Origin: Nitratireductor sp. XY-223
GTDB taxonomy: Bacteria > Pseudomonadota > Alphaproteobacteria > Rhizobiales > Rhizobiaceae
Length of the DNA: 64,000 nt
Reading direction: 5' to 3'
Assembly: GCF_004959855.1 (NCBI RefSeq)
Contig: NZ_SPNT01000005.1
Span: 310,001-374,000, forward strand
A model generated the notes under the pieces. It saw only the letters and a program-made list of their open reading frames with translations. It was not told where the DNA came from and did not search any database. Below are positions 5,586 through 38,882 of this stretch, one piece after another. The stretch's first letter is position 1. The number at the start of each line of letters is the position of its first letter. The position numbers were made by a program, and so were the translations under genes.

Positions 5586-6209
5586 CTATTTTTTCTCGAT
5601 ACGGAATTTCGTGTGGCAGGACGAGCACGTCTGGGCGAGCATATTGAACACACCGTCCGCCGGCATCCGGGCAAGCACGGCCGGATCGAGCATCATATCT
5701 CGTCCACCACCCATCATGTTGCCCGAGCCGCTCATCATCCCCGAGGCGCCGTCTCCCATCATGGAGCCGCCACCCATCATGTTTGCCCCGCCTTCGCCCA
5801 TCATGTGGCCCTCGGCATTTCCGCCGGCCATCATGGGACCGTTGTCGGCCGCCGCTTCAAGACCATCGGCGAGAACCCCCAACCGATCGGCCAGGGAAAC
5901 GAATTCGTCCCAGTTGGTCCATATCTCGGGTTTTGCAACCGACGGCTTTTGCAGGCTGCCTTCCGGAAACTGGCTGGTCATGGCTTCGCCGGCGTGGTTC
6001 TTTATCAAGGCGGCACCCTGTTTGACGACATCCGCGTCATAGGGCGTCTCGCCCATCATCATCTTGGAGATCGACTTCACCGCCTTGCTCATCACGCTCA
6101 TGGCGTCCATGCGTTCCTTCACGATGCCGGTCGCGCCGGTATGGGCATAGGCGGCCGCGGATATCGCTGTAACGACCGATGCGGCAATCAGGTAACTCTG
6201 TCTTTTCAT
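5586..6209 (-). CDS. cytochrome c'/c556-like protein with Met-rich insertion
   Basis: A 207-residue periplasmic protein with a signal peptide (1-22). Its first helix (GIVKERMDAM, 28-37) and C-terminal CSSCH haem motif (195-199) are typical of the four-helix cytochrome c'/c556 family. Between the last two helices, residues 126-173 form an insertion with seven Met-Met pairs separated by Gly, Asn and Ser. A haem protein with this Met-rich loop would be well placed to bind Cu(I) and take its electron. The start was set at 6209, where an AAGAGG ribosome site precedes the ATG and the signal peptide begins. A longer frame upstream adds only non-signal residues. Confidence 0.85.
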   Translation of the reverse strand: MKRQSYLIAASVVTAISAAAYAHTGATGIVKERMDAMSVMSKAVKSISKMMMGETPYDADVVKQGAALIKNHAGEAMTSQFPEGSLQKPSVAKPEIWTNWDEFVSLADRLGVLADGLEAAADNGPMMAGGNAEGHMMGEGGANMMGGGSMMGDGASGMMSGSGNMMGGGRDMMLDPAVLARMPADGVFNMLAQTCSSCHTKFRIEKK

Positions 6210-6271
6210 TTTCAAACCTCTTGAACTTCTTGCAAAGCAATTGCGCCATCCGCAATTGCACTTCGGTGTGT

Positions 6272-6646
6272 TCAAGAGACCGATCGTGGCGGCGGTGGAT
6301 CGCATCCGGACCGGATCAAGTGTCGAGTGATGTCATTTCCATTGGGACCATTTGTCATCGTCCGATGCCAATTGACCGCTCGCACGCCGCCTTGGGACAG
6401 CAAATCAGCACCGCAATGCACCACAGAAGTTGGTAATTGCAGATCAGGCCGGCCTGTATCGAGATGTGTGTGGGTGTCGTCTGTATGCTGTCCGTTTGCC
6501 GATCTCTCGTGCGTGTGAAAAGCCGCAGCCTCATCAAGATGCGACATCACTCCTCCGGCCACCAGCAAACCAGCCACCGCCAGTAAGGTCAGGCTGCGAC
6601 AGAGAACCGCCAGCCGGCTTCTTCCATTTATCATCCGCGATATCAT
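6272..6646 (-). CDS. small His-rich exported or membrane protein of the copper island
   Basis: About 124 residues: a basic N-terminus, one hydrophobic segment ending in Ala-rich residues (a signal peptide or anchor), then a hydrophilic His-rich tail with repeated H-x-H pairs and a single Cys in 'HCGADLL'. I do not recognise the family. His-rich small proteins of this kind are frequent in copper operons and may buffer the metal. It is first after CueR-type promoter 3 and precedes the cytochrome/oxidase genes. The start is uncertain: ATG 6646 gives a good signal peptide, ATG 6634 is also possible, and the frame can extend to a TTG at 6709. Confidence 0.55.
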   Translation of the reverse strand: MISRMINGRSRLAVLCRSLTLLAVAGLLVAGGVMSHLDEAAAFHTHERSANGQHTDDTHTHLDTGRPDLQLPTSVVHCGADLLSQGGVRAVNWHRTMTNGPNGNDITRHLIRSGCDPPPPRSVS

Positions 6647-6741
6647 TTTTTCTGCATCGCCGTTGTTTATGATTGCCCGGTGAATGTCCTGCCGCGTTGT
6701 TGCGATCAAGATAGGATTCCTGCCCTGACCCTTTCGTCATG

Positions 6742-6772
6742 ACTATAAAGCTTCCACCCAGTGGAAGCTCAA
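6742..6772 (-). promoter_or_regulatory. CueR-type copper-responsive promoter 3
   Basis: Read on the minus strand, TTGAGC (6772-6767) is followed after 19 bp by TATAGT (6747-6742). The spacer contains AGCTTCC, 7 bp, GGAAGCT, extended to near-perfect 9-bp arms. It lies just downstream of cueR and should drive the five-gene leftward operon from the His-rich protein to the cytochrome c gene ending at 2779. Confidence 0.75.
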
Positions 6773-6776
6773 GCCG

Positions 6777-7172
6777 TTATTGATCGTGCAACCCAGCCAG
6801 GTCATCGATAATGGGACAGTCGGGTTTGTCGTCGCCGTGGCATTTTTCGGCCAATGAAGACAAAGTCATCCGCAGGGACTGCAGTTCCGTGATCTTACGG
6901 TCGATTTCCCCGACTTTGTCGAGTGCCAGAGCCTTCACGTCGGAACTTGCCCGGTTCTTGTCCTGATAAAGCGACAGCAGCAATCTGCATTCTTCGATCG
7001 AAAACCCGAGACTGCGTGCCCTTTGCACAAATCTCAGCCGATGAATGTCCTTTTCCGAGTATTTGCGGTAGCCGTTGTCGCTGCGCTCGGGCGTCACCAG
7101 TTCAATGTCTTCATAGTAGCGAATGGTTTTTGCCGGCAGGTTCGACAGTTCGGCAGCTTGACCAATATTCAT
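6777..7172 (-). CDS. cueR: CueR, MerR-family Cu(I)-responsive activator
   Basis: A 131-residue MerR-family regulator. The N-terminal winged helix (TIRYYEDI, 16-23, and NGYRKYSE, 33-40) is followed by a dimerisation helix and a metal loop with C111 and C119 seven residues apart (CHGDDKPDC). This is the spacing of the Cu(I)/Ag(I)-sensing loop in CueR. It is encoded 24 bp downstream of the copper ATPase gene. The four dyads in this island are its likely operators, where it twists the over-long promoter spacer when copper is bound. A gold- or silver-responsive relative is the main alternative. Confidence 0.92.
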   Translation of the reverse strand: MNIGQAAELSNLPAKTIRYYEDIELVTPERSDNGYRKYSEKDIHRLRFVQRARSLGFSIEECRLLLSLYQDKNRASSDVKALALDKVGEIDRKITELQSLRMTLSSLAEKCHGDDKPDCPIIDDLAGLHDQ

Positions 7173-7196
7173 GTCGTTCTCCTGATGGTCATCCGT

Positions 7197-9578
7197 TCAA
7201 CGGGGGTCCAGCCCGACGCCTCTCAGCCTCAGCGCGTTGCCGATCACGGATACCGAAGACAGGCTCATGGCCGCGGCCGCAATCATCGGCGACAAAAGCA
7301 TGCCGGTGATCGGAAAGAGAATACCGGCAGCGATCGGTACGCCCGCCGAGTTGTACGCAAAGGCGAAAAATAGATTCTGCCGGATGTTCCGCAGTGTCGC
7401 CAAGGCCAGCCGCCTCGCCCTGACGATGCCGGTCAGATCGCCTTTCAACAGCGTTATACCAGCGCTTTCCACTGCAACATCAGCGCCTGTGCCCATGGCA
7501 ATGCCGACCTCGGCTGCCGCAAGCGCAGGGGCGTCGTTGACACCGTCACCGGCCATTGCAACCTTGTGTCCCTCGGCGTGCAATGCGTCAACCAGCAGCT
7601 TTTTGTCCTCGGGCAGAACGCCGGCCTTGACGTCGTCAATGCCGAGCTTTTCAGCAACAGCTCTCGCAGTGCGCTCATTGTCACCGGTGGCCATGATGAT
7701 CGTCAGGCCGGCTCGGTGCAACGCTTCGATCGCATCAGCGGTGGTTGCCTTGATAGGATCGGAGACCGCCACGATGCCGGACAGCATACCGTCAATGGCA
7801 ATGAACATTGCCGTTTTCCCGTCTTCGTTAAGGACGTTGGCCTGCTGATTGAGCGAGTTCGTATCCACCCCTTCCGCAGCCATCATGGCGCTGTTGCCAA
7901 GTGAAATAGATTTGCCGTTTGCCATGCCGCGGACACCCTTGCCTGTGACGGCTTCAAATGCGGATGTCTCTACAGCAGCCACACCACGGCTGGCAGCGCC
8001 TTCCACAATGGCTTCCGCCAAGGGGTGTTCGGAGCTTTTTTCCAGTGAAGCGGCGGCACCGAGTACCTGGCTTTCTGTCAATTCACCGACAGTCAGAACA
8101 TCGGTCAGAACAGGTCTGCCCTCTGTCAGAGTACCGGTTTTGTCGACCACAAGAACATCGACTTTGGCCATGCGTTCCAACGCTTCGGCGTCCTTGATGA
8201 GCACACCGGCCTGAGCGCCCCTTCCGGTTGCGGTCATGATCGACATCGGGGTCGCCAGACCGAGCGCGCAGGGACAGGCGATGATCAGCACCGACACGGC
8301 TGAGACGATGGCATAGGCGAACGCCGGGCTCGGACCGAACAGAAGCCAGACGACAAAGGCGACCACGGCGATTACAACGACCGTTGGAACGAAGTAGGAT
8401 GCAACTTTGTCGGCGAGCCCCTGTATCGGGGCACGTGAGCGCTGCGCAGATGCGACCATGGCGACGATCTGTGACAGGACCGTTTCGTCGCCGACCTTTT
8501 TGGCTTCGATGATAAGCGAACCGTTGCGGTTGATCGTGCCACCGGTGACCGGGTCGCCAGCGGATTTTTCGACCGGCACCGGTTCTCCCGTCAGCATGCT
8601 CTCGTCCACAGATGTGCTGCCTTCGATCACCACCGCATCCACCGGGACCGATTCACCCGGCCGGACGCGCAGGCGATCGCCTTCGATAATGTTTTCAAGC
8701 GGCGCATCATATTCGTCGCCATCGGGCGTGACCCGGCGTGCCGTTTTAGGCGCGAGATCCAGCAGAGCCTTGATCGCGTCGCCTGTGCGCTCCCGCGCCC
8801 TCAACTCCAACACCTGGCCCACAAACACCAACGCGACAATCACAACCGCAGCCTCGAAGTAGACCGGCACGTGTCCGCCTTCGGAACGGATACCGGCGGG
8901 GAAGATGCCCGGCACAAATGTTGCGATTGTGCTGTAAAGATACGCCGCGCCCACGCCGATCATGATCAGCGTCCACATGTTCAAGTTCCAGGTCCGGATC
9001 GAAGAGACGCCACGCTGGAAAAACGGCGCGGCGGCCCACAGGATGACGGGTGTTGCCAGCACAAACTCGATCCAGAGAGCGGTCCGTTCACCGATCAGAT
9101 CCCGAACCGGCAATCCGACCATTGGCGCCATAGTGAGGATGAGCAGCGGCACCGCTGCAAAGACACTCACCCAAAGCCGCCGCGTAAAGTCGATCAGTTC
9201 ATGGTTGGGCTCGTCCGAAACACCATCCAGCGGCTCGAGCGCCATACCGCATATCGGGCAGGAACCGGGCCCATCCTGAACGATTTCCGGATGCATCGGG
9301 CAGGTGTATTTCGTGTCCGCCGCGGCCGTCTCCCGCATTTGCCTGTTGTTGCCGGATACGAAGAAATAAGGATCTTCCTCGAACCGGTCGTGGCATTTCG
9401 AACTGCAGAAATTGTAGTCCCTACCCTTGTATGACAGCGACGGCTTGTCGGAATTGACATCTACCGTCATGCCACAGACAGGATCGACCACACCCCCGGA
9501 AACGGTCGGTAAATCATGCGCGTGGCCGCAAGCGGTGTGATCGTTGTCATGCTTTTTTACGGCAGTGTGATGGTCCAT
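7197..9578 (-). CDS. copA: copper-exporting P1B-type ATPase
   Basis: A heavy-metal P-type ATPase of about 793 residues that moves Cu(I) out of the cytoplasm. Instead of the usual CxxC HMA domains, its N-terminus has a His-rich stretch, a YHS-like domain ('DPVCGM', then paired Cys) and a second Cys/Met domain (CPMHPEI then CPICGM). The membrane CPC motif (IACPCALG), the phosphorylation site DKTGTLTEG and the hinge [10 protein letters not shown] are all present. It is preceded by CueR-type promoter 4 and followed by cueR. A GTG at 9587 is possible, but ATG 9578 has better ribosome-site spacing (ACGGG). The YHS plus CPMHP arrangement is typical of mobile copper islands. Confidence 0.93.
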
Positions 9579-11312: not shown

Positions 11313-12320
11313 TCAAATCTCCAGAACGACGTTGCCGATGGCTTCGCCCGATTCAACGTGTTCATGGGCCTCGGCAATGCGTTCCAGCGGAAAACGCCGG
11401 GCAATGGCGACATGCAGCGCGCCGTTCGCCGCCATGTCGGAGATCAGCGCCTGCGCCGCGTCCACGACATCCGGCGTCAAAAGGAACCCCTGGATGAAGC
11501 GCAGCGTGGCGCCTCGAAAGGCGAAATCGTAATAGGGCAGGACCGGCTCCGGCACCGCCGTGGACGAATAGGCGGCAATCACCGCATGGGGCCTGATGAT
11601 CCGCCGCGTCTGTTCGAGATTGGCGCCGAAGTCCACTTCGACAACGCGGTCGACGCCCTCTCCGCCCGTCAATTCCATGACCCGCCCGGCGACATCCTCG
11701 TCATGCCGCAGGACGATGTCCCGGACACCGACGGCCCTCACGTGGGCGGCCTTTTCGGCGCTGCTCACGGTGGCGATGACACGCGCGCCACCAGCGCGGG
11801 CGAACTGCGCGGCAAAGTGGCCGACGGCGCCGGCGGCGCCGGTGACCAGTACGGTCCTGTCCTCTACGGACCCGTCCGCGAACACAGCGTGGAACGCCGT
11901 CAGCGCCGGAATGCCGAGGCACGCGCCTTCTGCGAAGCCGAGCGGCTCCGGCAGCTCGAAAACCTGCGCCGCGGGAAGCGATATCCATTCGGACGCGGTG
12001 CCGTACGCCCTGCCGGCCTCGCCATAGCCGCCCTGGGCATTGCGCATCCAGACCCGCTTGCCGAGCCACGAAGGCGGCACATCCGCGCCGACGGCCTCGA
12101 CGATGCCGGCGCCGTCGGCGTGCGGCACAATCAAATCATGCTCCAGGGAAAGGCCGCCCCAGCCGGCGCGGCGCTTGACGTCGGCCGGGTTGATCCCGGA
12201 GGTGCGGACCCGCACCCGCACGTCACCGGGCTTTAAAGGTCCGCCGGGATCATCGGGCAGCGCGCCGGTCTCCAGAACCTCGGAGGCCGGCCCGGTCCGC
12301 CTGTACCAGGCCGCCCGCAT
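11313..12320 (-). CDS. MDR-superfamily zinc-independent quinone-type oxidoreductase
   Basis: A 335-residue NAD(P)H-dependent oxidoreductase of the medium-chain family (quinone oxidoreductase/crotonyl-type). The N-terminal GroES-like domain has 'SGINPADVKRR' and lacks the structural-zinc cysteines. The Rossmann motif is 'VTGAAGAVGHFAAQ' near residue 150. It starts 4 bp after the stop of the M28 peptidase gene, so the two form one transcript probably governed by the IclR regulator upstream. Substrate unknown; the context suggests it acts on a product of peptide or amino acid breakdown, or on a reactive carbonyl. Confidence 0.82.
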   Translation of the reverse strand: MRAAWYRRTGPASEVLETGALPDDPGGPLKPGDVRVRVRTSGINPADVKRRAGWGGLSLEHDLIVPHADGAGIVEAVGADVPPSWLGKRVWMRNAQGGYGEAGRAYGTASEWISLPAAQVFELPEPLGFAEGACLGIPALTAFHAVFADGSVEDRTVLVTGAAGAVGHFAAQFARAGGARVIATVSSAEKAAHVRAVGVRDIVLRHDEDVAGRVMELTGGEGVDRVVEVDFGANLEQTRRIIRPHAVIAAYSSTAVPEPVLPYYDFAFRGATLRFIQGFLLTPDVVDAAQALISDMAANGALHVAIARRFPLERIAEAHEHVESGEAIGNVVLEI

Positions 12321-12324
12321 CGGT

Positions 12325-14055
12325 TCAGGCGTGGCTCAGCCGCTCGACCTGCCGCTTGGCCTGGCGCATGGCCGAGACCAGACGGTTCTGGCCGCGGGTG
12401 AGCTGCGTCAGCGCGAAGCCCTCGGTGCCGTTGGTGTACTGATCGAGCTCACTTGCCACCGAAATCGTCGGAAGCGGCGGCACCGTCAGCGCCGGATCGT
12501 GCCGGAAACGGGCTTCGCGGGTGAAGTTGATCGGCACCAGGATCCTGGCGAGTTCCTGAATGACCGTGTTGGCCTCACCCGCGGCAACGGCGCCAGAGGA
12601 GACACCGCCGTAGAAACTCTCGAGCGCGGCGTGCAACTCCTCGACGGCGGCCCTTGACGGGCCAAGGTCGAAGCGGTCCCCGGCGCGCTGCTGGTATGTG
12701 CCGATGGTGGCGAGGAACTCGCGCGTCGTCTCGCGCCAGTCGAACGGCAGGATTTCGGCGTTGGCATTGCGGTAGACGGCAAGCAGGTAGAGCTTGATGT
12801 CGCGCAGCAGAATGTCCCTGTCGGCAATTTCAAGCGTGTCGTTCTCCGTGTGCCAAGCAATGTTGCCGCCGCAACCGCCGACGGCGTAGTAGCCTTTTTC
12901 CTCGCGCATCGCCTCGGTCATTGTCGAGGACAGCATGAAATAGCTGGAGATGCCGATATTGTTGAACGAATAGTCGCCGGCCCGGTGCGGCCGCTCGCCG
13001 AATGTCGGCTTGCCGGCCACGTCCTCGATCGCCCTGGCGACGAAGGCGTCGGTCTCGGACATGCGCGAAAGATTGAGGAATTCCGTCGCCCAGCGGCAGC
13101 CGGGGCTGTCGCAATTGACCTGCGCGACGCAGTTCTCCTCAAGATCGATGGCGAATTCGTCGGCGAACCAGGTGGAGCCGGCATAGCGGCCGGTGGAGTG
13201 GCCGGGCCACCAGGCGATGCGCACCGAGCGATCCAGCTTGTCGCGGTTCTTCCACAGGACGCGTGCCACCTCCATGAGGGTCGCATCGCCCGTCGCATTG
13301 TCGCCGACACCGACATCCCAACTGTCGAGGTGGCCGTGCAGGAGCACGTATTTTTCCGGCTCCTTCGAACCGCGGATGAAGACTTCCGGGAGTTTCGAGC
13401 GGAACCAGCCCTCTTCCATCTCGGTGAAGAGCTTCACCGTGCCGCCCGCCTTGGCAATCTCTATCAGCGCCTGGCCGTCGGGATTGTTGACGGCGACGGA
13501 GACGACATTCGGCTTGCGCGGCAGGTCATCGAGGTCCGGCGTTCCCCACACGGTGGTGCAAATGCCCCAGTGTATGTCGACGCCCGGATTGATGCCGATA
13601 ACGCCGATCGCACCCAGTTCCTCGAACTGGGCGATCATGCCGGGGCTGGCGAAACCCTCCGAAATGACGATCTTGCCGTCGATCAGCGCGCGCACGTCGC
13701 GGGTCGGGTCGAGCTTCTTGTCGAAGATCGTGTCGATGTCGTCGGCCTGGTTGGCGCCGATATAGACCAGCTCGCCTTCGAGCCCGTTGCGGGCGTCGAG
13801 ACTGTAGGCCGGCGGCTTGGCCCGGAAGGTCTGGCCGCCCGCCTCGACGCGGGCTTCGCCCGGAAGGCTGAGAAACAGGTTCGGCTGGTGAACCGTGACT
13901 TCAACGCCGTGATTGCGCAGCCGCGAGACGACTTCCTCCATGCCGCGGTCAACGTCGGCGGGATGCTCCCGCTTGAAGGTCGAAAAACTCTCCACCAGGC
14001 CCCACGGCTCATCGAGACTGACGTCGGACAGGAGTGCTTTTTCAGTTTCATTCAT
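12325..14055 (-). CDS. M28-family peptidase homologue with altered active site
   Basis: A 576-residue protein with the zinc aminopeptidase/glutamate-carboxypeptidase fold and an inserted PA-like domain (about 90-210). Expected metal ligands are visible: H242 and D244 in GHLDSWDVG, D252 in GDNATG, D316 and H402 in WHTENDT. The usual Glu-Glu pair (general base plus zinc ligand, in GEExGLxGS) is replaced by H286-S287 in 'WWPGHSTGRYAGS'. No signal peptide is seen, so it is probably cytoplasmic. The start at 14055 has a GAGGAG ribosome site; a longer frame runs through the operator. It is divergent from a peptide-type ABC importer under a shared operator, so its substrate may be the imported compound. 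Activity on a peptide is not assured. Confidence 0.82.
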   Translation of the reverse strand: MNETEKALLSDVSLDEPWGLVESFSTFKREHPADVDRGMEEVVSRLRNHGVEVTVHQPNLFLSLPGEARVEAGGQTFRAKPPAYSLDARNGLEGELVYIGANQADDIDTIFDKKLDPTRDVRALIDGKIVISEGFASPGMIAQFEELGAIGVIGINPGVDIHWGICTTVWGTPDLDDLPRKPNVVSVAVNNPDGQALIEIAKAGGTVKLFTEMEEGWFRSKLPEVFIRGSKEPEKYVLLHGHLDSWDVGVGDNATGDATLMEVARVLWKNRDKLDRSVRIAWWPGHSTGRYAGSTWFADEFAIDLEENCVAQVNCDSPGCRWATEFLNLSRMSETDAFVARAIEDVAGKPTFGERPHRAGDYSFNNIGISSYFMLSSTMTEAMREEKGYYAVGGCGGNIAWHTENDTLEIADRDILLRDIKLYLLAVYRNANAEILPFDWRETTREFLATIGTYQQRAGDRFDLGPSRAAVEELHAALESFYGGVSSGAVAAGEANTVIQELARILVPINFTREARFRHDPALTVPPLPTISVASELDQYTNGTEGFALTQLTRGQNRLVSAMRQAKRQVERLSHA

Positions 14056-14124
14056 CGGGGGTCTCCTCACTGGACGCGGCGGCACTTCACCGCCGGTGCC
14101 CGGCCGGCCCCGGCGAATGCCTGT

Positions 14125-14150
14125 TGTTTCATTCAATAAAACACTGTTTT
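14125..14150. promoter_or_regulatory. probable IclR operator in front of the peptidase gene
   Basis: Contains the 13-bp palindrome AAAACACTGTTTT (14138-14150) preceded by TGTTTCA. The 26-bp block matches the reverse complement of 15147-15172 at about 23 positions. The two blocks have the same orientation relative to the gene they precede, which points to one regulator controlling both promoters. Confidence 0.7.
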
Positions 14151-14295
14151 GTTTTAGGAATACCAAGCTTACGGCGGCAAATCAAGTGCCGATGCGCCAG
14201 GAACGGGTTGCAGACGGAGATTTATTGACGCGAAAGGTGCCGAACAGACCGGGCCGCGATGGCATGCGCGGCGTCGCCGGACGCCTGCGCGGCGG

Positions 14296-15087
14296 CTATT
14301 CCGCGGCCACGCCGGGCATGCCGGCAGGGGCGCCCAGACCAACCGATATGACCGCCGCGGACGCGAGCACGTCCTTCAAAATGCGGCTCTGAAGATCCTT
14401 GTCGAGCCGCGCCACCGGGCCGGCCACGGAAATGGCGGCCACGACATCGCGGCCGGGACCGTATATGGGCGCGGCAATGGAAAACGCGCCTTCGTCGAGA
14501 TCGTTGCGGGTGACGTGGAAACCGTCCAAGGCGATACGCGCCAGTTTCCTTTGCAGCTCGACGGGATCAGTGATGGTCTTCGACGCAAAGTGGGTCAGCG
14601 GTCCCGACAGCATCTCGGCCTGCACTTCCGCCGGCGCAAATGCCAGCAGGACCATGGAGCCGCCGCCGGCATGCAGCGGGCCGTGCCGCCCCGGCGCCGC
14701 ATAAAGGCGCATGGAATGGCGGCTTTCGCGCGTGGTGACCACCAGCGCGTTCAGGCCGTCGCGAACAATCAGGTTTACGTTCTCGTTGAACCGGTCCCTC
14801 AGCGCGTCCATCTGCGGTTCGGCGACAAGCAGAAGGCCGCGCTTCTTGGCCGCCTCGTCGCCGAGATGCCAGGCCCGGTAACCCAGCCCGTAATGCGAAC
14901 TCGTCTCGTTCTTGGCGACATAGCCGCGGGCCTCGAGGGTATGCAGAATGCGGAACACGAGGCTCTTCGTCATGCCCAGTTCGGCCGCCATCTCGGTGAC
15001 GCCGAGTTCGCCCTTTTCGCTGAGGATCTCCAAAACACTTAGCGCCCGGTCAACGGCGGCAATCCGGTAATCCCTTGAATCACTCAT
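14296..15087 (-). CDS. IclR-family transcriptional regulator
   Basis: A 263-residue IclR-type regulator: N-terminal winged helix-turn-helix (residues 8-70, 'VTEMAAELGMTKSLVFRIL') and a C-terminal GAF-like effector domain (about 85-250). It lies between the peptidase/oxidoreductase operon and the divergent racemase-ABC importer operon. Matching palindromes sit at both promoters, including its own, so it probably controls all three units and itself. The effector is unknown, most likely the imported compound or a breakdown product. The start ATG begins directly with the family-typical 'AVDRALSVLEIL' segment. Confidence 0.88.
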   Translation of the reverse strand: MSDSRDYRIAAVDRALSVLEILSEKGELGVTEMAAELGMTKSLVFRILHTLEARGYVAKNETSSHYGLGYRAWHLGDEAAKKRGLLLVAEPQMDALRDRFNENVNLIVRDGLNALVVTTRESRHSMRLYAAPGRHGPLHAGGGSMVLLAFAPAEVQAEMLSGPLTHFASKTITDPVELQRKLARIALDGFHVTRNDLDEGAFSIAAPIYGPGRDVVAAISVAGPVARLDKDLQSRILKDVLASAAVISVGLGAPAGMPGVAAE

Positions 15088-15172: not shown

Positions 15173-15199
15173 ACAACCGTCAACTCTGGATTGATGATC

Positions 15200-15955
15200 A
15201 TGCGCATCGCCTATGCCGTTCCAGGACCAATGTCAAAGGGCCCGATGGGTGCCGCCGAGGTCACACGCCGCGAAAAACTGCTTAACAGCTGGGCTTTCGA
15301 GGGCACGAAGGTGGAGGTCAGGGATGTGCCGACCGGACCCGCATCGATTGAATCGGCCTACGAGGAAGCGCTCTCGATTCCCCCGACACTCGATTTGCTG
15401 ATGCGGCTGGAGGACGAGGGTTTCGATGCGGCGATCATCGGCTGTTTCGGCGACCCGGGGCTCGAGGCGGCCCGCGAACTCGTCTCCATGCCCGTCGTGG
15501 GCCCGTGCGAATCCTCCATGCTGCTTGCCGCCGCGCTCGGCCACAAGTTCAGCGTCCTGACGATTTTCGATTCGCTCATCGCGGGCCAGGAATACCTGGC
15601 CGTCAAAGCCGGCGTGCGCGAAAAGCTGGCCTCCGTGCGGGCGACGGGAATTCCCGTACTTGAGCTAATGACCGATTTCGAGGCGACGAAATCGCGGCTT
15701 GTGGACGTCGCCACGCAATGCGTCGAGCAGGACCGCGCCGACGCCGTCATCTTCGGATGCATGACCATGTCCTTCCTGGACATGTCGGATGAGATATCGG
15801 CCTCGGTCGGCGTGCCGTTCCTCAACGCCGGCAAGGCGGCGCTGAAGCAGGCCGAGACACTCGTTTCAATGGGGATCGCCCATTCGAAAACCGCCTTCGC
15901 GACACCGCCAAAGGTGTCCGAGGGACAAACGGTCGCCGACCTCAAGGTCGGATAA
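15200..15955 (+). CDS. Asp/Glu/hydantoin racemase family protein
   Basis: About 251 residues of the aspartate/glutamate/hydantoin racemase superfamily. The two catalytic cysteines typical of the cofactor-free racemases appear in 'IIGCFGDPG' (near residue 79) and 'IFGCMTMS' (near residue 186). It is first in an operon with a Dpp/Opp-type ABC importer and is controlled from the IclR operator. The inferred role is epimerising an imported hydantoin, amino acid or peptide-derived acid. ATG codons at 15194 and 15200 are both possible; 15200 has better spacing to the TGGA ribosome site. Confidence 0.82.
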   Translation: MRIAYAVPGPMSKGPMGAAEVTRREKLLNSWAFEGTKVEVRDVPTGPASIESAYEEALSIPPTLDLLMRLEDEGFDAAIIGCFGDPGLEAARELVSMPVVGPCESSMLLAAALGHKFSVLTIFDSLIAGQEYLAVKAGVREKLASVRATGIPVLELMTDFEATKSRLVDVATQCVEQDRADAVIFGCMTMSFLDMSDEISASVGVPFLNAGKAALKQAETLVSMGIAHSKTAFATPPKVSEGQTVADLKVG

Positions 15956-15993: not shown

Positions 15994-17640
15994 ATGAGGA
16001 AGTTACTGACCATGGCCGTCCTGCTCGCGGGAACGGCTGCCGCCACACAGGCCTTCGCGGCGGGCGACAAGATTCGGGAAATCACACTCACCACGCGCCC
16101 GCAGGCGGCGCAGCCTCAGGAATTCCAGTTCGTGCAGCTGATCGCGCAGGAATGGCGCAAGCTCGGGCTCGACGTCAAGGTCGACGTCATGCCGTGGGAG
16201 CAGATGGCGGACCTTGTCTGGTACAACCGCGACAAGTGGGACACGACCGGCTGGCAGATGGTGGGCCGCCCGGAACGCTCGGACCCGGACGAACTGATCT
16301 ACAACCTGTTTCATTCGTCAACGGCCCCGAAGGGCTACAATTTCATCGGCTACAACAATCCCGAACTCGACGCGACCGTCGAGGCACAGCGCATCGAAAC
16401 CGATCCCGACAAGCGCAAGGAACTGCTCTACAAGGCGCAGTCGATCCTCGCGGAAGACCAGCCGAACCTGATGCTGGTGCACCCGAAATCGACCTTTGCG
16501 TTCGACAAGACCGTGTGGAATCCGGCGACCGTGATCGACCAGGGCGGCATCGGAATCAAGAACACATGGACCTTCATCTCGATGGAGCCGGCCGGCGATC
16601 AGAAGGACATCATCCTCAACTCGTCCGACAATATCCAGGGCATCAACCCGCTGTGGATCTCCGGCGGAACCGACAGCTGGATCACCGAGCTCATCTGGGA
16701 CCGCCTGTTGCGCATCGGGCCGGACGGCCTGCCGCAGCCATGGGCGGCCGAAAGCTACGAGTGGCTTGACGACAAGACCATCGAGCTGACGCTGCGCGAC
16801 GGCATGAAGTGGCACGACGGTCAGCCGGTCACCGTGGACGACGTCAAGTTCTCGTTCGAAGCGGCGATGGGCGACGAGGCGCCGATGTACAAGCCGTTTG
16901 TCGGCAATATCGAGGCCATCGAGACCAACGGCAACAAGATCACGTTCAAGCTGGTCAATCCGACCGCAGCGTTCCTGACCGCGAGCCTCGCCAAACTCAA
17001 TATCATCCCCAAGCACGTGTGGGAGCCGGTTCTGGCCGATCTCGCCACCAAGGAAGAGAACGCCGAGGACTACCAGGAAGAAACACCGATCGGCTCGGGT
17101 CCGTTCAAGTTCTCAAGCTGGACGACCAACGAGGAAGTCGTGCTTGAGGCCAACAAGGATCACTTCTCGCCTCCCAAGGCTGAGCGCTGGATCCTTCGGA
17201 TCGTCCCCAATACGGAAGCTGCCATCGGCATGCTGCGCTCCGGCGAGATCAACTTCCTCGCCGATTTCTCGGGCGATCCGAAGATCCTGCTCGACCTGAT
17301 GGAGCAGGACGGCGACCTTGAAGTGGTATCGACCGTCGACATGGGCTTCCGCTACGTGGCCTTCAATCACCGACGTCCGCCCTTCGACGATGCGGAATTC
17401 CGCAAGGCCCTGTCCTATGCGATCAACCGGGACCTTATCGTCGGCGCGGCGTTCCGCGGTTTTGCCGTGAAGTCGAATTCGGTGATTTCTCCGGCGCTCG
17501 GATTCTGGCACAATCAGGCCGTCAACGATTTCTCAACCGGAACGGATGTGGCGAAATCGATCCTCGAAAACGCGGGATACGAGATCAAGGGCGGCGCCCT
17601 CCACTACCCGGAAGGCGTGAAGGAAACCCTGGCGCAATAG
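15994..17640 (+). CDS. peptide-type ABC binding protein (SBP family 5), apparently circularly permuted
   Basis: A 548-residue periplasmic binding protein with a signal peptide (1-23). The usual domain order is swapped. Residues 27-200 resemble the C-terminal part of family 5 proteins ('QEWRKLGLDVKVD', a D/P-rich 'RSDPDEL', 'RKELLYKAQSILAEDQP'). Residues 201-548 resemble the N-terminal part ('INPLWISGGTD', 'LRDGMKWHDGQPVTVDDV', then 'FRKALSYAINRD'). The chain stops after 'YPEGVKETL', where ordinary members would run into the segment found here at the N-terminus. The frame is unbroken. It precedes two permeases and two ATPases of the Dpp/Opp type and should feed them with peptides or similar ligands. 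Confidence 0.88.
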   Translation: MRKLLTMAVLLAGTAAATQAFAAGDKIREITLTTRPQAAQPQEFQFVQLIAQEWRKLGLDVKVDVMPWEQMADLVWYNRDKWDTTGWQMVGRPERSDPDELIYNLFHSSTAPKGYNFIGYNNPELDATVEAQRIETDPDKRKELLYKAQSILAEDQPNLMLVHPKSTFAFDKTVWNPATVIDQGGIGIKNTWTFISMEPAGDQKDIILNSSDNIQGINPLWISGGTDSWITELIWDRLLRIGPDGLPQPWAAESYEWLDDKTIELTLRDGMKWHDGQPVTVDDVKFSFEAAMGDEAPMYKPFVGNIEAIETNGNKITFKLVNPTAAFLTASLAKLNIIPKHVWEPVLADLATKEENAEDYQEETPIGSGPFKFSSWTTNEEVVLEANKDHFSPPKAERWILRIVPNTEAAIGMLRSGEINFLADFSGDPKILLDLMEQDGDLEVVSTVDMGFRYVAFNHRRPPFDDAEFRKALSYAINRDLIVGAAFRGFAVKSNSVISPALGFWHNQAVNDFSTGTDVAKSILENAGYEIKGGALHYPEGVKETLAQ

Positions 17641-17667: not shown

Positions 17668-18645
17668 ATTCTCGGGTTTAAGCAAATAGGCGGCCGCCTG
17701 GCGCAACTGGTCTTTGTGCTCTGGGCGGTCGCCACGATCCTTTTCCTGATGTTCCGGCTGATGCCGACCAATCCCCTGGCAGCCTATATCGATCCGACGT
17801 TCACCGAAGAACAGCAACAGCTGCTGATGGCGAAATTCGGTCTCGACCGGCCGCTGTGGGAGCAGTATTTCATCTACCTGAAAAACCTCCTGCAGGGCGA
17901 ATTGGGCGACAGTTTCTTCTACCGCCAGCCGGTCGGCGAGCGGGTGATGGAACTGCTGCCCAATACGCTGGTCCTCACCTTCAGCTCGCTGATCATCGCC
18001 TATGTGTTCGGCATCATCGTCGGCGCATGGCTCGCATGGAAACGCGACAGCGTCGCCGAGCGCGCGGCCATTCCGCTGGTGCTGACGACGCGGGCGATGC
18101 CGGAGTTCTGGCTCGGCATGCTGCTGCTTGCGGTGTTCAGCTTCACGCTGGGCTGGTTCCCGGCGGGCGGCACGCGCAGCCCGGGCTCCGAATATGACGG
18201 CTATCTCGCCCTTTACACATCACGGGATTTCCTCGCCCACCTGGTGCTGCCGGCGATGACACTGGCCATCTACAGCCAGGGACTGCCGTTGCTTTTGATG
18301 CGCTCCAACATGCTGGAGGTCATGAACGAGGATTTCGTCACCATGGCCCGCATCAAGGGGCTTTCCAACTGGACGGTCGTCGTGCGCCACGCGGCGCGCA
18401 ACGCCCTGTTGCCGGTGATGACCTCGTTCGCCATCGCGGTCGGCTACCAGATCCAGGGCAATGTGGTGGTCGAGACCGTGTTCTCGTGGCCGGGCCTCGG
18501 GCGGGAGCTGGTCAACGCCGTTTCGGCGAGCGACTATCCGCTGGCCCAGGGCGCCTTCCTCATGATCGCCGTCGTGGTGGTGCTGATGAACCTTCTGGCC
18601 GACCTGCTCTACAGCCTGCTCGACCCGAGGATCTCCCATGCATAG
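17668..18645 (+). CDS. Dpp/Opp-type ABC permease 1, probable ATT start
   Basis: An inner-membrane permease of the DppB/OppB type with about six membrane helices and the EAA-type loop ('MARIKGLSNWTVVVRHAARNALLPV') near the C-terminal third. No ATG, GTG or TTG is placed sensibly. GTG 17716 would cut off the start of the first helix and has no ribosome site. At 17668 an in-frame ATT lies 9 nt after a GGAGG (17654-17658) and gives the expected basic N-terminus (LGFKQIGGRLAQ) before helix 1. ATT is a rare but known initiator. It overlaps the second permease by 8 bp. Confidence 0.85.
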   Translation: MLGFKQIGGRLAQLVFVLWAVATILFLMFRLMPTNPLAAYIDPTFTEEQQQLLMAKFGLDRPLWEQYFIYLKNLLQGELGDSFFYRQPVGERVMELLPNTLVLTFSSLIIAYVFGIIVGAWLAWKRDSVAERAAIPLVLTTRAMPEFWLGMLLLAVFSFTLGWFPAGGTRSPGSEYDGYLALYTSRDFLAHLVLPAMTLAIYSQGLPLLLMRSNMLEVMNEDFVTMARIKGLSNWTVVVRHAARNALLPVMTSFAIAVGYQIQGNVVVETVFSWPGLGRELVNAVSASDYPLAQGAFLMIAVVVVLMNLLADLLYSLLDPRISHA

Positions 18646-19546
18646 CGATTCGGCCAGCGCGGAACCGATCCGGGGCGGCAGCGTGCTGCGGTGGATCCGG
18701 CGCATACACCTGCCGCTGGACGATCCCTTCGCTATTGCCGGCCTGCTCATCTACGCGGTGTTCATACTGGTCGCCGTCTTTGCCGACCAGCTCGCCACCC
18801 ACGACCCGCTGGAGATCCTGTTCACGCAGGACTATCAGCTCGCCGCCGACCTCAGGCCCGGCGAGGACGGCTTTGTCCTCGGCACGACCAGCCTTGGCCG
18901 CGACATCTATTCCCAGCTCGTCTACGGCTCGCGCAGCGCGCTGCTGATCGGCATCACCGCGGCGTTCATGGTCGCCGTCATCGGCACCGTGGTGGGGCTG
19001 CTGGCCGGCTATTTCCGCGGCTGGACGGACATCGTGCTGATGCGCGCCGCGGACATCGCCTTCGGCATCCCGTTCCTGCCCTTCGTCATCGTCCTTGCGG
19101 CCTTTCTCGAGCCGTCCATCTGGAACGTGGTTTTCGCCATGGCGCTGATCCTGTGGCGCGACACCGGCCGGGTCATACGCAGCCAGGTGCTGACGCTGCG
19201 CACGCGCGCCTATATCGACGCGGCGCGGGTTTCCGGTTCGTCGGATCTCAAGATCGTGTTTCGCCACATCGCCCCGAACATCCTGCCGCTCAGCTTCCTC
19301 TACGGCTCCATCGCCATCGGTTGGGCCATCCTGACGGAAGCGGCCATCAGCTTTCTCGGTTTCGGCGATCCGGAAACGATATCCTGGGGATACATGCTGC
19401 AGGACGCCTATGCCAGCCAGGCGCTGTCGACGGGCGGCTACTACTGGTTCGTGCCGCCCGGCATCTGCATCGTGCTGGTGGTCGTCGCCGGTTTCTTCAT
19501 CAGCCGCGGCTATGAGGAAATCCTGTTTCCGAAGTTGAAGGAGTAG
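18638..19546 (+). CDS. Dpp/Opp-type ABC permease 2
   Basis: A 302-residue permease of the DppC/OppC type. A cytoplasmic N-terminus is followed by one membrane helix (about 33-52), a periplasmic region with the family motif 'LGTTSLGRDIYSQLVYGSR', and five further helices with the EAA loop ('YIDAARVSGSSDLKIVFRHI'). It pairs with permease 1 to form the channel for the binding protein at 15994. The start overlaps the preceding gene by 8 bp and an ATPase gene follows 6 bp later, so the five transporter genes form one transcript. Confidence 0.9.
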   Translation: MHSDSASAEPIRGGSVLRWIRRIHLPLDDPFAIAGLLIYAVFILVAVFADQLATHDPLEILFTQDYQLAADLRPGEDGFVLGTTSLGRDIYSQLVYGSRSALLIGITAAFMVAVIGTVVGLLAGYFRGWTDIVLMRAADIAFGIPFLPFVIVLAAFLEPSIWNVVFAMALILWRDTGRVIRSQVLTLRTRAYIDAARVSGSSDLKIVFRHIAPNILPLSFLYGSIAIGWAILTEAAISFLGFGDPETISWGYMLQDAYASQALSTGGYYWFVPPGICIVLVVVAGFFISRGYEEILFPKLKE

Positions 19547-19552
19547 GCGCGG

Positions 19553-20572
19553 ATGGGCGATGACATTCTTCGCGTCAACGGTCTGAAGATCTCCTACGCG
19601 GTGGGGGACGCCAAGGTGCGCGCGGTGGACGACGCGACCTTTTCGATTCCAAGCGGCTCCATCGTCGGCCTGGTGGGTGAATCGGGCTGCGGCAAGACGA
19701 CCGTGGCGCGCGGGCTGACGCGCGTCATGGCCAAGAGCGCGATCATCGAGGGCGGCGAAGCGATCTTTGACGGGACCGACCTGATGAAAATGAGCGAAGC
19801 GGAGATGAACCGGCTTCGCTGGCGCGACATCGCCTTCGTTCCGCAAAGTGCCATGAACTCGCTCGACCCGGTCTACCGGATCGAGCACCAGCTCAACGAG
19901 GTGCTGATCCAGCGCGGCGGCCACAGCAAGTCCGAAGCCCGGCAACGCTCCGAGGAACTCTTCGACATGGTCGGCATCGAGCCGAGGCGGCTCAAGGACT
20001 ACCCGCACCAGTTTTCCGGCGGCATGCGCCAGCGCGTGGCGATCGCACTCGCCCTGGCGCTCAACCCGAAGCTCGTCATCGCCGACGAGCCGGTGACCGC
20101 GCTTGACGTGATCGTGCAGCGGCAGATCCTCGACACGCTCAAGGACCTGCAGGAAAAGCTCGGCATCTCGGTCATACTGGTCACGCACGACATATCGGTG
20201 GTCGCCTATGTCTGCGACCGGATCGTCGTCATGTATGCCGGGCAGGTGGTCGAATCGGGCGACACCGAGACCGTGCTGACCCGGCCCTACCACCCCTATA
20301 CGATGGGCCTCTACAATGCCTTCCCGGACCTGCAGTCGAGCGCCGGTCTGCTGACCCCGATCGAGGGGCATCCGCCGGACCTGAGACATCCGCCCACCGG
20401 CTGCCGCTTCGCACAGCGCTGCCCGTTCGCACAGAGCCGCTGCACGACGAGCGGCGACATTGAACTCGCCGATGTCGGCGGCGGGCACTATGCGGCCTGC
20501 CTGCGGTCCGGCGAAGCGGCAACGCTGCGCGGGGACGCGGCGAAATCCGAGACATGGGCGGCCATGGCATGA
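19553..20572 (+). CDS. Dpp/Opp-type ABC ATPase 1
   Basis: A 339-residue ATP-binding subunit of the DppD/OppD type. Walker A is GESGCGKTT (near residue 41), the signature is FSGGMRQR, Walker B with its catalytic Glu is [12 protein letters not shown], and the H-loop His is in [10 protein letters not shown]. The C-terminus carries the oligopeptide-transporter extension with Cys residues ([11 protein letters not shown]), which binds an iron-sulfur cluster in relatives. It overlaps the next ATPase by an ATGA. Confidence 0.92.
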
Positions 20573-21582
20573 CGCAGCTGCAATCCGGACCCGCCGCACC
20601 GAACGGCGAACCTATGATCAAGGTCGGCAACGTGCGCAAGCATTTCGCGGTGGGCAATCCGCTGCTGGCGGCGATGCGCGGCACGACGACCCTGGTCAAG
20701 GCCGTCGACGGGGTCGATTTCACGCTGAACCGGGGCGAGAGCGTCGGGCTTCTCGGAGAATCCGGCTGCGGCAAGACAACCATGGGCCGACTGCTCCTGA
20801 AGCTCGAGGACGCGACGGAAGGGCAGATCCTGTTCGAAGGCGAAGACCTCGCCGACTGCCAGGGCGAGCGGCTGAAACGCTTCCGCACCCGCGCGCAAAT
20901 GGTCTTCCAGAACCCGTTCGAGGCCCTCAATCCGCGTTTCACGATCGCCCAGTCCCTGGCTGAGCCGCTGGACAATGCCGGCATCGGCAAGGCGGAGCAG
21001 GGAGAGCGGATCCGCGCGGCGATGGAACTCGTCCACCTGCCAAATCCCGAGCAGTTTCTTTCACGCTACCCGCACCAGATGTCGGGCGGCCAGCTGCAGC
21101 GCGTGGTCATGGCCCGGGCGCTTATCCTCGAGCCATCCTTCGTCGTCGCCGACGAGCCGGTCTCGATGCTCGATGTCAGCGTGCGGGCGGGCATCCTCAA
21201 CCTCTTCCGCGAGGTGCGGGAAAACCTCGGTCTGACGGCGATCTATATCAGCCACGACCTGGCGCTGGTGCGCTACGTGTGCGAGCGCACGATCGTCATG
21301 TATCTCGGCCGTATCGTCGAGGACGGCCCCACCGAGGACATCGTGCGTGAGCCGATGCACCCCTATACGAAAGCCCTGGTCGCGGCCGTTCCCGTGCCGC
21401 ATCCCGACCAGTCGCACGATGCATTGCCAATCAAGGCCGGCGCGCCGGATGCGCGCAACCCGCCGTCCGGCTGCCGGCTGCGCGACCGCTGCCCGCATGC
21501 CTTCGAGCGCTGCGCGCTCGAAGAACCGAAGGCCACGAAGGTGGGCGACCGGAAAGTGCATTGCCACCTGTTCGACGAGTAG
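20569..21582 (+). CDS. Dpp/Opp-type ABC ATPase 2
   Basis: A 337-residue DppF/OppF-type ATP-binding subunit. Walker [10 protein letters not shown], signature MSGGQLQR, Walker [12 protein letters not shown] and the H-loop [10 protein letters not shown] are all intact. The Cys-bearing C-terminal extension ([11 protein letters not shown]) is present. The start was set at the ATG overlapping the previous stop (ATGA at 20569-20572), not at the upstream in-frame ATG. It ends the importer operon, 14 bp before a convergent hypothetical gene. Confidence 0.92.
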
Positions 21583-29227: not shown

Positions 29228-30694
29228 ATGACGGGCAAGCCCGAACGCACGGAACTGGCACCGGGCCTTGAGGCAAGCCGGATCATCACCGGCCTGTGGC
29301 AGGTCGCGGACATGGAACGCGGCGGCAAACCGCTCGACCGCGTTCCGGCCGCCCGCGTGCTCGTCGACTACGCGGAAAGCGGCTTCGACACGTTCGACAT
29401 GGCCGACCACTATGGCTCGGCGGAACTGATTTCCGGCGAAGCCCGCCGGATGCTGCTTCAGAAAAACGGCGGCACCGACGCGAAATTTTTGACCAAGTGG
29501 TGTCCCGAACCACACCAGACGACACCGGAAGCAGTGCGCGCCGGCATCGCGGAACGCTGCGACAGGCTCGGCGTCGAGACGATCGATCTGCTCCAGCTGC
29601 ACTGGTGGTCGTTCGAATATCCCGGATATCTTGACGTGATGGACACGCTGATGCGCCTCAAGCAGGACGGCGTTATCGGGCATATCGGGGTGACGAATTT
29701 CGACACCGATCACCTTTACCTGCTGCTGCAGCAGGGCTACGAGATCGCCACCAACCAGGTCTCCTGCTCGTTGCTCGACCGCAGGGCGCTGGCCGGCCTG
29801 AGCGACCTGTGCCTTGAGCGCGGCGTCAGGCTGCTGGCCTACGGAACGCTGGCCGGCGGCTTCATGTCGGAAAAGTGGCTTGGCAAACCCGAGCCTTCGG
29901 TCACCGACTGGAGCAAGATGAAATATTCGAGATTCATCGGCACCATCGGCGGCTGGCCGGTCTTCCAGGACCTGCTTTCCTGCCTCGACGGAATCGCGCG
30001 GCGCCACGGCGTGTCGATCGCCAATGTCGCGACGCGCTGGATCCTGGACCAGCCGGCCGTCGGCGCCGCGGTCATCGGCGCGCGGCTGACCCGGTCGGAG
30101 CACCGCGCCTCCAACACCGACGCGTTCTCCTTCGCGCTGGATCAGCAGGACCATAATGCCATCGCGGCCTTTACCGGGCAGATGAAATCCGTTCCCGGCG
30201 ACTGCGGCGACGAATACCGCCGGCCGCCCTATCTCACCGCCTCGGGCGACCTGACAGATCACCTGAGCGAACTGCCGCCGGTCTTCGAGGTGGTCGAGAA
30301 CAACGGCCGCCGCCAGGCCCTGTCGGGCAGCGAATGGGAGCCGGTCGCCGGTTACTGCCGCGCTTTGCGTAAGGGCAACCGGATCCTGGTCAGCGGCACG
30401 ACCGCGACGCATGGCGAAAGCCGGGTCGTTTGCCCCGGCGACGTGCGCGGCCAGACGATCTACATCCTCGACAAGATCCTCGGCGCGATCACGTCGCTGG
30501 GCGGGACGCGCGAAGACGTCATACGCACGCGCATCTATCTGCGCGACGCCGATCAGTGGGAACCCGCCTCCCGCGTCCACGGCCGGTATTTCGGCACGGT
30601 CAGGCCGGCCAACACGCTCCTCGAGATCGGCCGGCTGGTCGGCGACTACGCGGTCGAAATCGAAGCGGAAGCCGAGGTGACCAAAAGCCGCTGA
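29228..30694 (+). CDS. aldo/keto reductase-RidA fusion protein
   Basis: A 488-residue two-domain protein. Residues 1-340 form an aldo/keto reductase with a full tetrad (Asp and Tyr in MADHYGS, Lys in FLTKWCPE, His in LLQLHWWS). Residues 370-488 are RidA/YjgF-like ('RILVSGTTATHG', 'DVIRTRIYL', 'RPANTLLEIGRL', 'VEIEAEAEV'). In RidA enamine/imine deaminases the Arg of P-A-R binds the substrate carboxylate; here the triplet reads PAN. The domain may thus bind a different ligand. The gene ends the Liv importer operon, and its reductase half is a paralogue of the enzyme at 23453. Confidence 0.88.
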   Translation: MTGKPERTELAPGLEASRIITGLWQVADMERGGKPLDRVPAARVLVDYAESGFDTFDMADHYGSAELISGEARRMLLQKNGGTDAKFLTKWCPEPHQTTPEAVRAGIAERCDRLGVETIDLLQLHWWSFEYPGYLDVMDTLMRLKQDGVIGHIGVTNFDTDHLYLLLQQGYEIATNQVSCSLLDRRALAGLSDLCLERGVRLLAYGTLAGGFMSEKWLGKPEPSVTDWSKMKYSRFIGTIGGWPVFQDLLSCLDGIARRHGVSIANVATRWILDQPAVGAAVIGARLTRSEHRASNTDAFSFALDQQDHNAIAAFTGQMKSVPGDCGDEYRRPPYLTASGDLTDHLSELPPVFEVVENNGRRQALSGSEWEPVAGYCRALRKGNRILVSGTTATHGESRVVCPGDVRGQTIYILDKILGAITSLGGTREDVIRTRIYLRDADQWEPASRVHGRYFGTVRPANTLLEIGRLVGDYAVEIEAEAEVTKSR

Positions 30695-38346: not shown

Positions 38347-38882
38347 CTCTTCTCCTCCCGAGATTTCATTTGACCAGCAAATCCTGGCTGACAAATTCTC
38401 TGAACAACGGTGACAAAAAGTCAAACTAAAAATTTAGTAGATGAGAATCTTTTTTACAATCCATTGATTTTAGTATGAAATTTTTTTCATCGGGTTGGCC
38501 TATAGCGTGCTTGCGAGGCGATTGCGATCCCTGTCTTCCTTTCCGGCATCTCATCGTCCGGTCGAATTCCCGTCCTTTGCCCGGACAATTTTCCGGCGAT
38601 GAATTCAGCTGCCATGCAACCTGTGCGACGGCGCAACGAAGCCGGCCGTTGTCGCAGTCCAATCGATCTTGTCGCACTGCCATGGCACGCCTTGAGCAGT
38701 CGCCGCCAAAACCTGCCTGAGTGTGGCAACGGCCACAGTCGCCCCATCGTGAACCGACTAAACTCACGAAGACTTTACTGGACGGGCCACTCGCGCGCGG
38801 CTCTATGCTCTGCGACGCGCACAACCGTTGTTTTAGTGAGGGATCAAGAATTTTTTGCGGGGACACGATAAAGGATTTCGAA
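38347..38882. other. intergenic region between the glycerol operon and a small ORF
   Basis: Divergent spacer of 536 bp. The part next to the glycerol operon (about 38400-38495) is AT-rich and holds the inverted repeat ATGAAA, 4 bp, TTTCAT (38475-38490), which might be an operator. The rest is normal in composition with no convincing gene on either strand. Confidence 0.4.

Follow-up and report, generated by a model that had tools for sequence, protein, structure and literature searches.

A very probable natural circular permutation in a family 5 (Dpp/Opp-type) solute-binding protein of Nitratireductor and its relatives

The stretch of DNA analysed here, called the window, is 64,000 nucleotides of the Nitratireductor sp. 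XY-223 genome (contig NZ_SPNT01000005.1, positions 310,001 to 374,000). At positions 15994–17640 of its forward strand lies the gene for a family 5 (Dpp/Opp-type) solute-binding protein. A first-pass annotation of the sequence proposed that the two parts of this protein stand in reverse order, with residues 27–200 resembling the C-terminal part of family 5 proteins and residues 201–548 the N-terminal part. The question is whether this is a genuine, inherited rearrangement of a working protein. The reading frame is intact, as had been proposed, running from ATG to TAG and encoding 548 residues.

SBP_bac_5 (PF00496) is the sole Pfam-A family on the protein, matched in two stretches (240.1 bits; cut-off 32.4). 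The better of the two places residues 247–535 on profile positions 2–284, and a scan of the whole genome with the same profile finds positions 286–365 upstream in the same ORF (27.6 bits, which alone is below the cut-off). When the parts were scanned separately, the N-terminal part matched profile positions 289–365 with 30.4 bits, just below the cut-off, and the remainder of the chain matched positions 2–284 with 219.7 bits. Both ends of the profile are present in one chain, and the canonical linear order is absent. The solved chains give a similar picture. Against 8efz_A, residues 206–541 align with 14–334 and residues 28–176 with 337–474, so that only two residues of 8efz_A lie between the two aligned pieces; against 1xoc_A, residues 249–532 align with 67–347 and residues 46–171 with 376–496. 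Judged from these alignments, the pieces tile an ordinary chain, hardly any of which is missing at the cut. Chance was considered as an explanation and rejected, since the pieces abut almost exactly and the N-terminal piece alone has E-values of 2.8e-7 (Pfam) and 4.8e-11 (solved chains). We class the protein, on its sequence, as a permuted variant of SBP_bac_5 and not as an ordinary member. The proposed identity of the two parts thus stands, and the boundary, which had been put near residue 200, is accurate to a few residues: the part that is N-terminal in ordinary members starts at about 202–206.

The gene can be divided into four features, all on the forward strand. Residues 1–23 (15994–16062; approximate, by eye) form a putative signal peptide on the new N-terminus. 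Residues 27–192 (16072–16569) form the segment that is C-terminal in ordinary members; scanned alone, it has matches in 29 distinct solved-chain sequences, none of the matches beginning before chain position 338. Residues 193–203 (16570–16602), between the two profile matches, are a linker from the canonical C-terminus to the canonical N-terminus. Residues 204–541 (16603–17616) form the segment that is N-terminal and middle in ordinary members. G185, G187 and W192, just before the linker, and P199 inside it are invariant in an alignment of 44 rows. As read from the sequence, a short linker connects the old C-terminus with the old N-terminus, the new cut separates the canonical 'AGY' helix region from the strand-helix-strand unit that follows it, and a signal-peptide-like sequence precedes the new N-terminus.

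Exchanging the halves in silico gives a single full-length canonical match. Against a profile made from 28 ordinary relatives, the restored order scores as one domain (HMM 48–516 of 526, 352.7 bits), whereas the native order gives two pieces, the best with 262.1 bits; against Pfam, the restored order forms one stretch covering profile positions 2–365 of 368 (257.2 bits). The gain in whole-protein score is small (353.1 bits restored versus 345.5 native), because both pieces already score in the native order, and it is their collinearity that changes. Ten NCBIfam models match the protein; none reaches its cut-off, and the best stretches all lie within residues 201–537. In the best 60 of 107 solved-chain sequences matched by a profile of the permuted proteins, no best stretch runs in the permuted order across the junction. 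With both results in hand, we rejected the idea that this is an already known permuted family.

One scan of genome contigs returned 58 loci, which were used to look for homologues with the same order. In 51 of them a single ORF is collinear with the query in the permuted order to its end. The remaining seven are L059, collinear as far as the end of its contig at residue 507; L069, likewise cut by a contig end; L072, a fragment; L073 and L074 (Buttiauxella), which are distant and not permuted; L075, which gave no phmmer match at the threshold used; and L067. In the last, an Aquamicrobium MAG, the permuted gene (5896–7582) is split over two frames, by sequencing error or decay. This split gene is the one observation in favour of an assembly error near 16594, the artefact that the first-pass annotation had allowed for, or of a pseudogene made of two gene fragments. 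Against such an origin, the junction is conserved in independent genomes, recurring in the 51 collinear loci and on a circular plasmid record called complete (NZ_CP029209.1), and all four partner genes of the importer are present in the window. The gene is also under constraint: dN and dS are 0.016 and 0.512 against L018, 0.059 and 1.108 against L019, and 0.057 and 1.164 against L039, which gives ratios of 0.03–0.05, with both halves constrained. With a junction shared by homologues and such ratios, we rejected the artefact, to which we assign a vanishingly small probability. By sequence comparison, many genomes keep the permuted order, and purifying selection acts on it.

Homologues are found in Alphaproteobacteria, Bacillota, Chloroflexota and haloarchaea. 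Identity to the query is 97% in Hoeflea poritis (L018), 62–91% in other Alphaproteobacteria and one MAG labelled Trueperaceae, 53–55% in Brevibacillus and Halanaerobiales MAGs, and 41–47% in Chloroflexota MAGs. The Trueperaceae MAG (L040, Deinococcota) carries a copy 62% identical to that of the window, with IclR, racemase-like and M28 genes nearby as in Alphaproteobacteria; either transfer or mis-binning would account for it. A plasmid search gave 37 matching records, 36 of which span 80% or more of the query, and haloarchaea (Haladaptatus, Halalkalicoccus, Halostagnicola and others) appear at 27–31% identity among the 30 plasmid matches listed. The homologues start with a signal-peptide-like sequence at the new N-terminus (simple pattern and inspection by eye). 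A lipobox-like motif was found by simple pattern in several Bacillota and haloarchaeal homologues, at least one match to this pattern (L065) lying upstream of the likely start.

A larger set of homologues was compared with a profile of 46 ordinary proteins. Each of the 80 collinear permuted homologues matches it in exactly two pieces, which are out of order; none of the 54 ordinary relatives does so. The 80 are what remains of 88 permuted matches after the window's own gene, genes obtained twice and near-copies were dropped (L013, L017, L076, L039, L046, L106, L111 and L077), and they are not independent, with 78 distinct at 99.5% identity, 64 at 95% and 55 at 90%. Against the query itself, 20 ordinary proteins, hand-picked and not strictly the 20 nearest, are all canonical, several of the second matches being weak (5–10 bits).

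The family is sparse within the taxa where it occurs; all the genome counts are lower bounds, mostly with only the top few candidates per genome scored. End-to-end matches are present in 12 of 297 genomes of the order, our own included (L076–L087); the other 29 matching genomes in that tally have the canonical N-terminal part alone, among the matches listed. The class gives 12 of 289 genomes at E 1e-42, again with our own included and with one (G1266) partial at a contig end, and the phylum sample gives 1 of 398, which is our own genome alone. The phylum of a Chloroflexi genome yields 2 of 201 and that of a Brevibacillus genome 7 of 299, each count including the genome named, and three of the seven have two copies. 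This widespread yet patchy occurrence fits horizontal transfer or frequent loss. Family 5 itself is abundant: SBP_bac_5 matches number 12 to 46 per genome in eight genomes that hold a permuted locus, and 17 in our own, where two of them are the two pieces of the permuted gene.

A chain in this order could also be a fusion, in which a C-terminal fragment of one binding protein was joined to an N-terminal fragment of a different one; this would give the observed order too. To weigh this against a single permutation, trees were made from 30 permuted rows (the window included), thinned at 72% identity and with their halves restored, and from 46 of the 54 ordinary rows, named outliers and lengths outside 480–640 being omitted. 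L117, L059 and L069 were barred as partial. All four trees come from one alignment, in which the order was restored at our own cut. In the whole-protein quick tree a branch separates the permuted proteins from the ordinary ones (SH-aLRT 97), and in the careful tree their clade has UFBoot 99 and SH-aLRT 93 and is present in 200 of 200 bootstrap trees. The halves taken separately also give one permuted clade each, with support of 97 for the N-terminal part and 92 for the C-terminal part. In all trees the same six ordinary family 5 proteins of canonical order (L159, L169, L171, L161, L010 and L015) join this clade, with support, as unrooted splits, of 94 for the N-terminal part, 88 for the C-terminal part, 89 for the whole quick tree and 99/96 for the whole careful tree. 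Because the half trees agree on both the clade and its six neighbours out of 46, one permutation is favoured over fusion. The near-perfect tiling of the canonical chain, of which hardly anything is missing or covered twice (8efz 14–334 and 337–474), also counts against two unrelated fragments, and we consider a fusion very unlikely. On these trees, in which the support from the C-terminal part is moderate, both parts descend from one ancestral protein.

The same trees bear on whether the permuted order arose several times, the break point and the closeness of the termini making permutation easy. Some permuted members have long branches (CP_L124 and CP_L084, as does the ordinary can_L161), some rows have an odd composition, and the branches that place single neighbours of the clade are partly weak. 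These features leave room for several origins, but all four trees, and all 200 bootstrap trees, recover the permuted proteins as one clade. The break point is also similar in all 80 permuted homologues: the N-terminal part ends at profile positions 341–377 (median 370) and the C-terminal part starts at 342–395 (median 378.5) of 532. We regard repeated origins as very unlikely. A permutation of this kind is usually explained by an in-frame tandem duplication of a gene, followed by loss of the outer parts, and by this general model the permutation would have arisen once.

Two of the ordinary proteins in the neighbouring group, L169 and L171, are encoded on contigs that also carry a permuted gene (G655:C2 and G656:C12), about 11–12 kb away from it. 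This ordinary binding protein has its own permease matches and M24-like genes (L179 on G655:C2 and L178 on G656:C12), and in L178 a D-aminoacylase-like gene also lies near it. The presence of an ordinary relative close to the permuted gene is a suggestive hint of duplication, which a clustering of related uptake operons explains equally well.

A structure prediction had been proposed as a further check. AlphaFold2, run on an alignment (A1) of 44 rows consisting of the query and 43 permuted homologues, generated a confident model, with mean pLDDT 92.3, pTM 0.88 and no residue below 50. Foldseek comparison of the model gave, in the best 50 of 165 matches at E 0.001, structures of Dpp/Opp/Nik-type and related sugar- or opine-binding proteins, including AppA, NikZ, DppA, OppA and a sialic-acid-binding protein; no solved permuted relative was found by fold within the same 50. 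These matches span 319–386 columns of the 525-residue model, about two thirds, with TMq 0.39–0.53. The aligner follows sequence order and so covers one block only; such partial cover fits what would be expected of a permuted chain, and the remaining third of the model lies outside the match. In the mature chain, the elements predicted before the cut are a C-terminal helix and short strands (H494–503, E507–509 and E512–514), and those now opening the chain are a strand-helix-strand unit (E7–11, H18–32 and E38–42). In cluster C proteins both canonical termini generally lie in the same lobe. The permuted chain would be expected to fold to the usual two-lobed shape.

The segment that has moved carries part of the ligand site. 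According to PMC12136057, R383 and D436 of E. coli DppA hold the dipeptide. The Yersinia DppA chain is matched over 386–506, the same range as the E. coli chain, and by counting along its alignment position 436, the first Asp of GDNGDPD, stands opposite Glu94 of the permuted protein (Glu71 of the mature chain). This Glu lies within GRPERSDPDE and is invariant in the 44-row alignment; DppA R383 is just outside the aligned stretch. By this alignment, at least the acidic ligand contact sits in the segment moved to the N-terminus.

The importer operon that had been described around the gene is confirmed, and in the window the Dpp/Opp-type set is complete. Downstream of the binding protein, on the forward strand, are permease 1 (DppB/OppB type; 17668–18645; Pfam BPD_transp_1 and BPD_transp_1_N), permease 2 (DppC/OppC type; 18638–19546; BPD_transp_1, with OppC_N just below the cut-off), ATPase 1 (DppD/OppD type; 19553–20572) and ATPase 2 (DppF/OppF type; 20554–21582), both ATPases having ABC_tran and an oligo_HPY tail. 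The start of permease 1 is probably the ATT at 17668 and not the listed GTG at 17716. The frame is open from the stop codon of the binding protein, contains no ATG, GTG or TTG before GTG 17716, and has GGAGG preceding the ATT; the ATT (17668–17670) is kept in L018, L019, L039 and L026, and its position is taken by ATG in L020. Conservation of an AUU start could be a means of tuning the permease level.

We propose that the permuted protein is the ordinary capture subunit of this ABC importer, with the other four subunits encoded after it in the operon, and that it would capture its ligand by lobe closure and dock on the cognate pair of permeases. It might instead have left the importer to serve as a sensor or a free scavenger, given that the new N-terminus could alter docking and that one locus (L048) has no permease match despite 6 kb downstream. 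Yet a permease match accompanies the gene in 85 of 95 permuted-type loci, and in most of the other ten the flank is short or the contig ends; flanks generally reach no further than about 6 kb, and the loci cannot be counted as independent. All of the 31 alphaproteobacterial loci (the window, L018–L039, L041, L042, L046, L047, L067 and L118–L120) and all 9 distant loci with long flanks have such a match. A role apart from the importer is in our view highly improbable. The organisation of the importer genes varies among relatives. Among the Chloroflexota loci L049–L071, 17 have a match to the importer ATPase: in 15 it is one long ORF of about 660–790 residues, probably two ATPases fused, and in two it is a short piece. 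Two distant permuted members, L080 and L123, have the order binding protein, ATPase, permease, followed in L123 by a second permease, a second ATPase and a gamma-glutamylcyclotransferase-like gene.

The genes on the other side of the binding protein provide clues as to the cargo. Directly upstream is an Asp/Glu/hydantoin-racemase-like enzyme (15191–15955, forward strand; Pfam Asp_Glu_race), preceded on the reverse strand by an IclR-family regulator (14296–15087; IclR_C and HTH_IclR), an M28-family peptidase (12325–14166; Peptidase_M28) and a zinc-binding, quinone-reductase-type dehydrogenase (11313–12320; ADH_zinc_N and ADH_N). Matches to M28 occur in 31 of the 31 alphaproteobacterial loci, to IclR in 30, to the quinone reductase in 26, to hydantoinase B in 23, to the racemase-like enzyme in 20 and to hydantoinase A in 8; the first 40 kb of the window gave no hydantoinase match. 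Permuted loci of Bacillota have racemase-like genes in 4 of 4, M28 in 1 of 4 and permeases in 4 of 4, and those of Chloroflexota have them in 20, 16 and 19 of 23, respectively. Neighbours annotated on plasmids are hydantoinase A/B, M20 hydrolases, creatininase, D-aminoacylase and dipeptide epimerase, and distant permuted members have varied neighbours.

Because M28 and racemase-like genes adjoin the importer here, and hydantoinase genes do so in many relatives, the cargo may belong to an amide, hydantoin or D-amino-acid-derived substrate class, an assignment from gene neighbours that we hold tentatively. Candidates would be small amino-acid-derived amides such as a hydantoin, an N-carbamoyl or N-acyl amino acid, or a peptide with a D-residue, which may be processed by M28 or M20 hydrolases, by the Asp/Glu-racemase-like enzyme and, in many relatives, by hydantoinase. 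From the same neighbours we infer that the most likely job of the importer is the import of small amide-type amino-acid derivatives as a nitrogen or carbon source. Elsewhere in the window, one ORF (29228–30694) combines an aldo/keto reductase with a RidA-type (Ribonuc_L-PSP) domain. A second importer type is represented by a 604-residue SBP_bac_1 binding protein (36610–38424, reverse strand), with ATPase-like matches nearby at about 34.3 and 35.4 kb.

It is useful to compare the protein with known systems. With DppA, OppA, AppA and NikA (family 5/cluster C, PF00496) it shares the sequence family over the whole chain and the operon partners; the difference is that the order of the two parts is swapped. 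According to PMC4990184, TpMglB-2 (Tp0684) of Treponema pallidum is likewise a naturally permuted binding protein, for which the authors proposed a 'c' subclass ('Type Ic / Cluster Bc'); it binds its sugar in vitro, and relatives with the same order exist. By the same account, TpMglB-2 has a cluster B glucose-binding fold, whereas the present protein is of family 5, and in TpMglB-2 the first strands of the N-lobe were moved to the C-terminus, whereas here the last third of the canonical chain comes first. With SBP_bac_5 as its only Pfam family, Dpp/Opp/Nik-type and related structures as its best 50 fold matches, and a different part moved, the protein falls outside 'Cluster Bc'. A search of open-access PubMed Central (titles and openings of abstracts, among the matches listed) found no report of a permuted family 5 or cluster C protein, and a term search of a permutation-mining preprint (PMC12667903) matched no binding-protein term except 'carbohydrate-binding proteins'. 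For cluster B, TpMglB-2 (PMC4990184) already provides a permuted binding protein; for family 5 a permutation is new as far as we have searched.

Taken together, the observations make it very probable that this is a family 5 (cluster C, Dpp/Opp-type) solute-binding protein whose circular permutation is natural and inherited, and our trees group the permuted proteins as one clade. A wider reading, on which we are evenly balanced, is that this is an old, single-origin and so far unnamed clade of permuted cluster C proteins, which might be called 'cluster Cc', spread over Alphaproteobacteria, Bacillota, Chloroflexota and haloarchaea. Its members would carry the C-terminal ligand-contact segment at the N-terminus and the signal or lipid anchor on the C-lobe, with altered tethering to, and docking on, a Dpp/Opp-type permease, and would share a role in import of amides, hydantoins or D-amino acids. 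The agreement of the half trees makes the claim of one origin directly testable.

Family 5 is a large family of binding proteins in these organisms, and in ten annotated plasmid regions the permuted clade is labelled plainly as 'ABC transporter substrate-binding protein'. The permuted order breaks rules that assume one linear order, with consequences for Pfam matches that fall in two pieces, for the choice of templates and for residue-by-residue transfer of specificity. It also suggests a tolerated cut site for sensor design, and offers a natural experiment to see whether a Venus-flytrap protein depends on its chain order, folding route and tethering point.
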